This document shows positions 32,283 through 35,485 of a stretch of DNA of 64,000 nucleotides, in pieces. The notes under the pieces were generated by a model. That model saw nothing but the letters and a program-made list of their open reading frames with translations, did not search any database and was not told the origin of the DNA. Within the stretch, counting starts at the first letter, position 1; each line of letters opens with the position of its first letter. A program made the translations under genes and the position numbers. This DNA comes from Candidatus Poribacteria bacterium (GTDB lineage: Bacteria; Poribacteria; WGA-4E; UBA9662), in assembly GCA_012963885.1 (NCBI GenBank), contig DTUY01000018.1, positions 1,933-65,932 on the forward strand, read 5' to 3'.

Positions 32283-33338
32283 TTATAGGAGGGGGAAAGA
32301 AAACGTTAAAAGGAAAGTAAGTCCTCTTTTAAAAGTATCGCTATCTTCGGAAAGCATTTTCTGTCCAAGGGGTTGTATCAAGTTGAATTGGACAACGGAT
32401 CTGTCCCAGAAGCTGACACTAGCACCGAAGAGTAGTGCATTCACTATCAAGCCTGTGTTCCGATCCCGCTCGCCATCCCAGTAGCCATAATGTTGGTACA
32501 AACCGGTATAATGCGTGTTTAGCGCCAATGAATTTGAGATGCGATATCGAACACCAAAGTTATAGTTAAGTTCGGTTGGTGCACGATAAGCTTTTCCATT
32601 TTCGTAGAACGGAAGACGGCCGGTAACATAACTGTGTAAAGCGAGCTTTCTCAGCAATTTTATGCTGTGCTGAAACTTTATTATTGGTACGAACGTACCA
32701 GTACCGAATTGAATGTGAAGATGCTTTTTACCCGCATCACCAAGTCTATATGGATCCTCTTCTATCTTGCCAATTGGCAGACTCATTCCTAAAGAAAAAA
32801 CCAATTTCTCTCCCAGACGAAGGAGGTTGCCTGAATAGTAATTAACACTAAACTCGAAGTCACTTAATCCAGTGTATGTTTCAGTTCGATGATGTATGTC
32901 GCGGTTTGCTAAAATAGCGTCTCGATTTTCTGGTGTTTGGTTGCGCCCCAAAAAATCAACCCGTGCCTTTTGGTTCTTAATATCGTATGGCAGGTCCAAT
33001 GACAGTGCCAAAGCGTTCCGCATGAAATACCGGATACCAAGCTCTATTCTGGTGAAATCGAGAGATACTTCGTGCCTGTGTTGGGGATGAATATGCTCAA
33101 TGACTTCCCCTTTTGGTCCCAGACCTCGATATTCGAAATGGCCTCCTCGAGAATCCGGACTTCTTAAAACGTTCAGGGAAAAATTCAGACGTTCAATTTT
33201 TGAGGCCGAACTGACCTCTCCCGTCTCCACGCGAGGAAAGACGGGGTTGCTTCAAGCGCCTCAGCTATCTTGTGCTTTAACACAAACTTGGCAGAACCAA
33301 AGAGCAGCTATGAACAGGAGAATGAAGGCGTTTTTCAT
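32283..33338 (-). CDS. Candidate double-selenocysteine outer-membrane barrel protein (two in-frame UGA codons)
   Basis: An ATG at 33338 overlaps the M56 stop (TAATG). It opens a signal peptide (MKNAFILLFIAALWFC...VKAQDS), then reads UGA-Gly-Ala-UGA (33263-33261 and 33254-33252) and continues in the same frame through 'SNPVFPRVETGEVSS' into the barrel. About 351 residues in total. The mature part has amphipathic strands ('FGTGTFVPIIKFQHSI', 'LNYNFGVRYRIS', 'LIVNALLFGASVSFWD') and ends 'LTFLLTFSFPLL', as in 'transporter'-type outer-membrane barrels. If UGA is read as Sec, the mature N-terminus is Ser-Sec-Gly-Ala-Sec, a redox/metal motif equivalent to CxxC. A GTG at 33230 would give a barrel without an export signal. 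A hairpin at 33220-33245 fits a SECIS position. The alternative is a gene broken by two nonsense codons. Confidence 0.65.
33220..33263 (-). promoter_or_regulatory. Candidate bacterial SECIS element with its two UGA codons
   Basis: Downstream of the UGAs the minus strand forms CCCGTCT / AGACGGG (perfect 7 bp, 33245-33220). The inner TTCC-TCGCGT-GG can add two C-G pairs with bulged U residues. The inner loop lies about 17 bases after the second UGA and about 26 after the first. Known bacterial SECIS loops lie roughly in that range. The loop sequence does not obviously match the E. coli fdhF consensus, so this is a structural inference. Confidence 0.45.
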
Positions 33339-34267
33339 TAGTGACTGTTTCCTTTCTGGTAACATGATCGGTAGTTAAAGTTACAAAATTCTGTTTCACA
33401 CTCTTTTTCATTTAGAATTGGCCGTTCTTCTGAAAATAGGACTCCAGCAGAAATTGAAATTGCAAAAGCAAACGATAGAGCTAAAGAAAATGTGAATTTT
33501 GATTCTTTTTCTGTTTCATTGCTATTAATTAAGGATTCAATTCTATCAATCAAGTCACCTTGATTGACAGAAACGAACATGAATTTTTGAACTTGGTTTC
33601 TTACCCGGACAAGTTTTATTAAAGCCTTGGAAAGTTCCAGTGGTGAACTCCCACAGCGTGTCGCAAATTGATCCGCTGCTTTTTCACTTGATATCTGAAA
33701 GTTTCTTTTGAGATTTCGACAAACAGGTAAGAAAAACATAGAATCGCTTAAAAAATTAATTATCAGGTTTTTTAGAGTGTCGAACTGACGACAATGGTAT
33801 ACTTCATGCCTAAGAACAGCCTGAATTTCTTCCGTCGTCATGAGCTGAATTAATCCGGTTGACAGATAAATTCTGGGGAGAAACACTCCAGCAGAGAACG
33901 CCCAACAGATAGTATCATTTCGAAAAACATGGATGCGGTTGGTTGGGAAATTAACTGACAATCCAAGGGGTAGTGAGTTGACAATTGAAAGCTGGCTTAA
34001 AAACTTCTGCGTTTTGTAGAGATGTGCTATTACTCGAATAGTGGCAAAAATGATTCCAACAACCATAGCCGCAATGCTCATCCAGATTGGGATTTTGTAT
34101 GCTGAGAAATTACAAACTTGAAAACAAATAATCGAATCACCACATGAATGCAGTGTTTTGGTGGTTACGATAGTTAACTGCAATAGCCCAGCGAATAGTA
34201 TGAAGATGAAGATCACGCCCCAGAAACTGGCATCACTTTTTCTTTTATGGTGAATAAAGCTACTCAT
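33338..34267 (-). CDS. BlaR1/MecR1-like M56 family membrane metallopeptidase
   Basis: 309 residues with about four hydrophobic segments. The zinc motif 'VLRHEVYHCRQFDTLKN' (HExxH) and 'SSEKAADQFA' are typical of M56 sensor proteases that cleave BlaI-type repressors. The penicillin-binding sensor domain of BlaR1 is absent. Instead, after the last membrane segment, a short Cys-rich tail appears ('NEKECETEFCNFNYRSC'), which could sense metal or redox state; that is inference. Its start overlaps the repressor gene by eight bases, and its stop overlaps the next ATG (TAATG). Confidence 0.85.
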   Translation of the reverse strand: MSSFIHHKRKSDASFWGVIFIFILFAGLLQLTIVTTKTLHSCGDSIICFQVCNFSAYKIPIWMSIAAMVVGIIFATIRVIAHLYKTQKFLSQLSIVNSLPLGLSVNFPTNRIHVFRNDTICWAFSAGVFLPRIYLSTGLIQLMTTEEIQAVLRHEVYHCRQFDTLKNLIINFLSDSMFFLPVCRNLKRNFQISSEKAADQFATRCGSSPLELSKALIKLVRVRNQVQKFMFVSVNQGDLIDRIESLINSNETEKESKFTFSLALSFAFAISISAGVLFSEERPILNEKECETEFCNFNYRSCYQKGNSH

Positions 34268-34697
34268 CCGAATCTTTTTCCTTCAGCTGGCGGCGTTTTT
34301 GCTCAATCGCATACTCAAGTTCCTCAATTGATTGCGGATCATCTTGGCTAAGGAGATTTACAATAGCTGAAATCGCGTTCGAGCGGGAAATAGACAATGC
34401 GCTTTTTATGGCCTGCTGACAAGCAAGATGTTTGAACTCTTCACGGCTAAGAACAGCAGAAAAGTGGAAAACTCCCGCCTTTTTTTTCTTACCTAATAGT
34501 CCCTTTTTGACCATGCGGTTCAATACAGTCAAAATGGTGTGATAGGCATTCTGGCGTTTCAGGGAAACAGCATCGAAGATTTGCCGTCCAGTAGCTTCAT
34601 CACTCTCCCAGAGATAGTTTAGTAAGTCTTGCTCCAGATGACCAAGTACTTGGTGGAGTCCCTTATTCTGTGTTGTGAGTCGGTTGATCAATGTCAT
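34260..34697 (-). CDS. BlaI/MecI/CopY family transcriptional repressor
   Basis: 145 residues. The winged-helix DNA-binding domain covers about 15-90 ('QDLLNYLWESDEATGRQIFD', 'NAYHTILTVLNRMVKKGLL'), followed by a dimerisation/cleavage region. Family members bind TACA-n-TGTA-type palindromes and are inactivated by an M56 protease or by copper. The next gene is such a protease and the operon promoter contains a TACA/TGTA palindrome (35491-35509), so autoregulation is very likely. It follows the TlpA gene by 30 bases. Confidence 0.88.
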   Translation of the reverse strand: MTLINRLTTQNKGLHQVLGHLEQDLLNYLWESDEATGRQIFDAVSLKRQNAYHTILTVLNRMVKKGLLGKKKKAGVFHFSAVLSREEFKHLACQQAIKSALSISRSNAISAIVNLLSQDDPQSIEELEYAIEQKRRQLKEKDSDE

Positions 34698-34727: not shown

Positions 34728-35450
34728 CTATTTTTTATTAAGCAAGTTTGAAACGTGTTTTTCCACTTCTTGGTGATTAGTTTTGCCTGTCCATTGCGCA
34801 ACGATTTGTTTTTCTGTATTGATCAAAAACATCGTTGGAACTACTTTTAAGTTAAAAGATTTAAACGCTGAATCTTTTTTTGCATCATGTAAAATTGGGT
34901 AAGAAATGTTCTTCTCTTTGATAAAATTTTTAATTTTTTTCCTGATGTCTTTGCCTTGATCAATAGAGATTCCTAGCACAACAAACTTTTTGCTTTTCTT
35001 ATGCTTTTTATTTAGTTTCTGGAGTTCGGGCATCATTTCTACACATGGAATACACCAAGTTGCCCAAAAGTCAATTAGTACTACCTTACCCTTGTAGTTT
35101 TTCAGGGTTATATCTTTACCCTTAAGATTCTCAACAACGAAATCGGGAGCAGGACGTGGAATAATCGGAGGAAGATAGGCTGTAGGATTGTCATCAAATT
35201 GTTCTTTGCACTTTTGGCAGCAGAAGTAATAGGTTTTACCTTCGTATTTTCTCCAAGCTCCGACTTCAACGGGAGTTGTATCACCTTGACTTGAGCGAAT
35301 TGTGCATGGAGCTTCTTCGGGGATTTTTCCAACTTCCCCCGCTTGTATTATGTTCAGAAAACTGAGATGCACCAAGATTAGAAACAAATAGGTTCCCATG
35401 TATTGCTTTATCCTTCTCATAGCAGGTAGCAAAAAAACCAACCAATTCAA
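34728..35450 (-). CDS. Secreted TlpA-like thioredoxin with N-terminal YHS/TRASH-like domain
   Basis: About 240 residues. A hydrophobic export segment ('GTYLFLILVHLSFLNIIQA') is followed by a YHS/TRASH-like metal-binding module ('EGKTYYFCCQKCKEQFDDNP') at about 55-95. A thioredoxin/AhpC-TSA fold follows with redox motif 'WATWCIPCVEMMPEL' and cis-Pro 'LKVVPTMFLI'. It should be a periplasmic thiol-disulfide reductase linked to a metal-binding domain. I prefer a TTG start at 35450, nine bases after AAGGAG. The in-frame ATG at 35480 would lie almost at the predicted transcription start. ATGs at 35420 and 35399 are also possible. It is the first gene of the BlaI-controlled operon. Confidence 0.82.
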   Translation of the reverse strand: MNWLVFLLPAMRRIKQYMGTYLFLILVHLSFLNIIQAGEVGKIPEEAPCTIRSSQGDTTPVEVGAWRKYEGKTYYFCCQKCKEQFDDNPTAYLPPIIPRPAPDFVVENLKGKDITLKNYKGKVVLIDFWATWCIPCVEMMPELQKLNKKHKKSKKFVVLGISIDQGKDIRKKIKNFIKEKNISYPILHDAKKDSAFKSFNLKVVPTMFLINTEKQIVAQWTGKTNHQEVEKHVSNLLNKK

Positions 35451-35485
35451 TTTGGATTTCTCCTTAAGTATAGATTCCATAGGTA

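Follow-up and report, generated by a model that had tools for sequence, protein, structure and literature searches.

The window analysed here, a stretch of 64,000 nucleotides, is part of contig C18 of a Candidatus Poribacteria MAG of 6.84 Mb in 420 contigs, with a contamination of 5.45%. Positions 32283..33338 of its minus strand hold a gene for an exported beta-barrel protein, 351 residues long from ATG to TAA when TGA is translated as selenocysteine (Sec, U). Read in this way from 33338 to 32283, the product begins MKNAFILLFIAALWFCQVCVKAQDS-U-GA-U-SNPVFPRVETGE..., after which 322 open codons and the TAA follow. The in-frame TGAs of the gene are codons 26 (33261..33263) and 29 (33252..33254) only, and codons 24-32 read DS-U-GA-U-SNP. 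For the signal peptide region (codons 1-25, 33264..33338) our structural model predicts a helix at residues 2-19 and then an unstructured stretch. The predicted 12-stranded barrel occupies 32286..33188. The first-pass annotation had described the same arrangement, namely an ATG overlapping the stop of an M56 gene, a signal peptide, and two UGAs in a frame that stays open into the barrel, and all of this was borne out.

The overlap lies at 33338, and the upstream partner is an M56 (BlaR1-type) metallopeptidase gene (33338..34267, minus strand; PF05569, 3.5e-15) which likely shares an operon with the barrel gene. Upstream of the M56 gene are present, on the same strand, a BlaI/MecI/CopY-type repressor gene (34260..34697; PF03965, 6e-21) and a gene for a TlpA-like thioredoxin (34728..35480; PF00578, 1.7e-24). 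The latter had been named earlier as a neighbour and was found to carry an N-terminal YHS domain (PF04945, 6.6e-10). The nearest named relative, in a separately assembled Candidatus Poribacteria MAG (locus L006, 77-78% identity), has both TGAs and also an M56 gene upstream of the barrel. A second copy is present in the window's own assembly (locus L021, G000:C357:2033-3079, minus strand), which is 87% identical and carries the motif CSAU. Its upstream sequence looks like the M56 gene's 3' end and includes a stop, and a gene for a small, Cys-rich secreted protein lies nearby. This copy could have come from a second strain, or it could be a duplicate of the window locus that has decayed.

Distribution and motif of the barrel family

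A profile search of 85 genomes of the phylum placed the family in 67, and almost all of these copies contain one or two in-frame TGAs. Verrucomicrobiales contributed 11 full-length copies among 387 genomes, all with two TGAs, while a search of 399 genomes from the order to which Terrimonas (Bacteroidota) belongs found four copies, none with a TGA. Draws across the wider Verrucomicrobiota and Bacteroidota yielded no further Sec member but did add a fifth Bacteroidota Cys copy, and a tblastn search of plasmids with the Cys form gave no match.

In the 85 homologous loci only UGA and Cys are seen at the two sites: 53 loci have UGA and 32 have Cys at residue 26, and at residue 29 these counts are 81 and 4. 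In Poribacteria the motif reads UGAU or CPAU, with CSAU seen once; Verrucomicrobiales have UPAU and Bacteroidota have CPAC. Cys at these codons of homologues, which the first-pass annotation had named as a check on its Sec reading, thus occurs in both Bacteroidota and Poribacteria. Its argument that an exact pair of UGAs would hardly arise by coincidence is strengthened as well, since 134 in-frame TGAs fall on codons 26 and 29 of the 85 loci as against only one elsewhere inside the genes, and the pair recurs in the nearest relative. On the family tree three label changes are needed. The CxxC forms make up one clade, and Cys at residue 26 has at least two origins within Poribacteria, one in a whole paralogue clade and one in a single copy in the window's own genome. 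Values of dN/dS 3' of the UGAs range from 0.05 to 0.23, indicating purifying selection and conserved coding. When both sites were rechecked in independent assemblies TGA was present, and the two TGAs are found in dozens of assemblies from two phyla, some of them single-contig.

Fragmented copies of the barrel were seen elsewhere in the same phylum (G019:C20, G027:C2:632590-633130 and G046:C1:1198245-1198774), where the family is decaying. The lone extra TGA, at codon 60 of a UxxU copy (L102), stands where relatives have Trp and is either an error or early decay. Distant barrel homologues (L119-L131 and L137-L144) align with the profile chiefly over its second half, and a scan of them found no [U/C]xx[U/C] motif; one of them, L142, has a Cys-rich N-terminus.

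Selenocysteine machinery and RNA hairpins

The genes for Sec insertion, for which the first-pass annotation had proposed to search, were all found in the window's genome: SelA (E 1.5e-154), tRNA-Sec with the anticodon tca (UCA), SelB at about 17 nt from tRNA-Sec on the same contig (TIGR00475 search) and SelD (G000:C46:18580-19500). The SelD gene contains one in-frame TGA, suggesting that SelD is here probably a selenoprotein itself. Among the genomes tested, the three Verrucomicrobiales with UPAU have SelA, whereas Terrimonas, with CPAC, lacks it. No full-length SelA match was obtained in a few Poribacteria carriers (G015, G026, G029 and G048), all of them draft MAGs with an estimated completeness of 81-90%. 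As a terminal stop, TGA is used by 21 of the 85 family genes and by 8 of the 39 long ORFs in the window, so there is no global recoding. Since only a single other internal TGA occurs beside these 21 real stops, decoding must depend on context.

A hairpin 6 nt past the second UGA had been noticed from the beginning. It is present in the minimum-energy fold (hairpin 1, CCCGUCUUUCCUCGCGUGGAGACGGG, 33220..33245, minus strand), but it is probably not the whole signal; the strongest conserved SECIS-like hairpin of Poribacteria lies about 40 nt downstream. In a contiguous-stem test hairpin 1 did not rise above the synonymous-shuffle control in Poribacteria; its Verrucomicrobiales counterpart is a GGUC-loop hairpin seen in 10 of 11 copies. 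Hairpin 2 (GAGGUCAGUUCGGCCUC, 33202..33218, minus strand), likely the SECIS element, has GU in its apical loop and lies 39 nt 3' of the second UGA. Across 41 Poribacteria loci it forms 8 bp with a GUU-type loop, and four of the eight pairs show changes on both sides, with C-G replaced by U-A in five sequences and A-U by G-C in four.

When hairpins with a G-U or G-G apical loop were counted, 68 of 70 Poribacteria loci had one at 39-43 nt past the second UGA, against 3-6% expected from synonymous shuffling. This range was chosen after viewing the alignment, once the strict bSECIS criteria, with a spacing of 16-37 nt, had failed in Poribacteria (4 of 42 and 0 of 28 passing). The published model asks for an apical-loop G, a stem of at least 4 bp, a spacing of 16-37 nt and an energy of -7.5 kcal/mol or lower (PMC13188914). 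Loop and stem of the Poribacteria hairpin fit this model, but its energy is often -5 to -7.5 kcal/mol, and its spacing falls just outside the published limits, which counts against it as a Sec signal. In Verrucomicrobiales a CCCC-GGUC-GGGG-type hairpin is positioned 19 nt past the second UGA and meets the model in 10 of 11 copies (2.5% expected). Neither hairpin type was found in any of four Cys genes, and an Rfam search of 33000-33500 gave nothing meaningful. Sec-bearing Poribacteria also often have IPRSG, the peptide encoded by the Verrucomicrobiales hairpin region, whereas the Cys-only Bacteroidota have LQSSE there, a pattern which, as an inference from sequence, is consistent with a constraint on the RNA. 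In these comparisons the hairpins track Sec and not the protein. Decoding of both UGAs as Sec under their direction is strongly supported on comparative grounds, without direct proof. The counts come from related loci and are therefore not independent events.

The machinery, the restriction of both columns to U or C, the SelA pattern, the absence of global recoding, the hairpins and the low dN/dS together underlie the reading of both UGAs as Sec. On this evidence, which is drawn from sequences and includes no protein-level proof, we hold that reading to be nearly certain. The first-pass annotation had made the same proposal, which would have failed had the genome lacked Sec genes, had homologues lacked Cys or Sec at the two sites, or had independent reads shown TGT/TGC or TGG there; none of these results was obtained.

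Barrel fold, gene neighbourhoods and proposed function

AlphaFold2 modelling from five sequence rows gave 12 long strands with a pLDDT of 71.9 and a pTM of 0.72. The top fold matches in the PDB are FapF (5o65, E 2.6e-11) and a COG4313 channel (4rl8, E 3.4e-11, TMt 0.71), while a PDB sequence search with the barrel found no homologue and a BFVD fold search only generic barrels. Seven histidines (H67, H87, H89, H149, H150, H206 and H208) are invariant in all 85 loci. The UxxU motif is placed, at low confidence, in the N-terminal segment preceding strand 1. The pLDDT is below 50 in this segment and in residues 191-214, where H206 and H208 lie, and therefore the geometry of a metal site cannot be read from the model. 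The N-terminal segment of the COG4313 channel reaches into the lumen of its barrel from the periplasmic side (PMC4493636). As modelled, the window barrel resembles these 12-stranded channels; a luminal position of its N-terminus would rest on analogy alone.

Metal transport or sensing genes, in clusters of the copper/mercury/silver type, surround the CxxU and CxxC forms and are not seen around most UxxU copies. In 29 of 30 loci of CxxU paralogues the upstream gene encodes a small secreted protein rich in Cys, and 20 of 30 have genes for a YHS protein and an OEP efflux protein, with the barrel lying between the Cys-rich and the YHS/OEP genes; many of these loci show only 1.5 kb of flank. A CusB-type adaptor with four HMBD domains is encoded in all three wide CxxU loci. 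In Bacteroidota, an HMA-thioredoxin gene is located directly upstream of the CxxC form in all five loci. Around one of them (L007) are present MerTP (264 bits, cut-off 180), CsoR-type and ArsR-type regulators, HMA and a multicopper oxidase, and around another (L145) MerTP-like and CsoR-like genes, judged from their sequences without a profile. Six of the 11 Verrucomicrobiales copies have a Cys-rich small protein upstream. Proteins of this kind (CCQ...CC type) are encoded just upstream of the barrel in both Poribacteria and Verrucomicrobiales, for example at L108:5213-5653, L073:4297-4767 and L008:3627-3971. These three had no NCBIfam match, and that of L108 no Pfam match either; it is possible that the small proteins are metal chaperones. 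Of the 42 UxxU copies in Poribacteria, 29 have an aldo/keto reductase gene directly upstream (e.g. L067-L079), and genes for a cupin and a small membrane protein are often close by; the metal reading is weakened for the UxxU copies by this context.

We base a role in metal handling on the gene contexts of the CxxU and CxxC forms, the YHS and TlpA domains in the window operon and the seven invariant histidines; in the absence of binding or tolerance data we lean towards this role with no great assurance. In the mechanism that we propose, SelA, SelB, tRNA-Sec and SelD of the genome would decode both UGAs, directed by the conserved hairpins just 3' of them. Signal cleavage would leave UxxU near the start of the mature protein, before strand 1, where the two selenolates (Cys thiolates in relatives), probably together with the invariant histidines, may bind a soft metal ion such as Cu(I), Ag(I) or Hg(II). 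At the outer membrane, and alongside Cus-type efflux or Mer/Cop proteins, the barrel would then capture the metal or hand it on. Known metal-related selenoproteins support such chemistry (PMC13188914). Taken as a whole, a UxxU outer-membrane selenoprotein that binds a soft metal seems to us a probable explanation of the locus. Gating of the barrel by metal remains speculative. A fuller version, in which UxxU plugs the 12-stranded barrel, captures a soft metal with the invariant histidines and opens or loads a selenolate-gated channel, both Sec residues being inserted under one tandem-hairpin SECIS whose main Poribacteria element lies about 40 nt away, beyond the published spacing, is offered only tentatively.

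The first-pass annotation had left the motif as one for selenium redox or for metal. Homologue neighbourhoods favour the metal half of that suggestion, and thiol redox is less favoured without being excluded. In the redox case the same double-Sec protein would use UxxU or CxxC as a thiol/selenol pair to reduce disulfides or peroxides at the outer membrane, and the neighbouring TlpA-like thioredoxin would recharge it. The TlpA-YHS gene of the window operon and the HMA-thioredoxin fusion beside all the Bacteroidota copies suit such a role as well as a metal one, and in most known selenoproteins UxxC and CxxU are taken as redox motifs (PMC13188914). However, the modelled barrel has no thioredoxin-like fold and carries the motif on an unstructured N-terminal segment, the CxxU loci belong to a Cus-type cluster with no thioredoxin in view, and the invariant histidines suit metal binding, which makes a redox pair rather unlikely in our judgement. 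We find it very hard to believe that the UGAs are merely a selenium-sensing switch, which without selenium would stop translation at codon 26 so that no barrel is made, the residues themselves mattering little. So early a termination would indeed cost little, but Cys alone replaces Sec, including in lineages that keep only the second UGA or none, which argues that the chalcogen side chain matters. A pseudogene or an assembly or sequencing error might be suspected from the fragmentation and contamination of the MAG and from the broken copies in G019, G027 and G046; we rejected it as virtually impossible, given TGAs at the same two Cys columns in dozens of assemblies from two phyla, some single-contig, and purifying selection downstream. 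Genome-wide reading of TGA as a standard amino acid such as Trp, which an in-frame TGA in a conserved gene could suggest, was likewise rejected and deserves practically no credence, as TGA is a real stop in family genes and window ORFs and homologues have Cys, never Trp, at both sites.

Comparison with known systems

The barrel family has no match to an NCBIfam model above its cut-off, and it is not among the 119 prokaryotic selenoprotein families of a 2026 compilation (Table 1 of PMC13188914). Our literature search found no paper combining "Poribacteria" and "selenoprotein". A groundwater MAG study of 2026 reportedly describes selenoprotein candidates that are not in that table. The barrel thus looks like an unlisted selenoprotein family, with priority not settled in view of the groundwater candidates. 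It would add a family in two phyla for which little selenoprotein literature was found, with a double-Sec motif in a rare location, an exported outer-membrane barrel. Copies are probably misannotated as truncated, since standard gene callers either end the gene at codon 26 or begin it within the barrel. The naturally occurring UxxU, CxxU and CxxC forms offer a direct test of why selenium serves at a likely metal site, and the two UGAs, 9 nt apart, allow decoding from one element to be studied.

In fold, the closest likeness is to the COG4313/Phenol_MetA_deg (PF13557) channels (Pput2725, 4rl8) and FapF (5o65), with which the family shares a predicted 12-stranded barrel and an N-terminal segment before strand 1. 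Identity to these proteins is only about 10-12%. PF13557 matched two of seven tested family members weakly (best 4.6e-6), and the window protein had no significant Pfam match. The context of the window family is one of metal and not of aromatics or amyloid, and UxxU/CxxC and the invariant histidines are not among the features described for COG4313 in the part of the source that we could consult (PMC4493636).

Other outer-membrane barrels with predicted Sec are the GSU2204/MtrB-PioB-type proteins (NF041027) and the TonB-dependent receptor FCYXU (NF049945) (PMC13188914); these have one Sec each, in other motifs and families, and the window protein matches neither model. In motif, the nearest parallel is the UxxU metal-binding (seleno)protein NF041115 (MerP/HMA-like), which also has UxxU in place of a metal-binding CxxC and is metal-related. 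NF041115 is, however, a small HMA-like domain, and the window barrel shares the motif with it without a match to its model. The SO_0444 Cu/Zn efflux and MerT/CopZ-type heavy-metal transport selenoproteins belong to yet other protein families, and what they have in common with the proposed role of the barrel is the use of Sec in metal transport.
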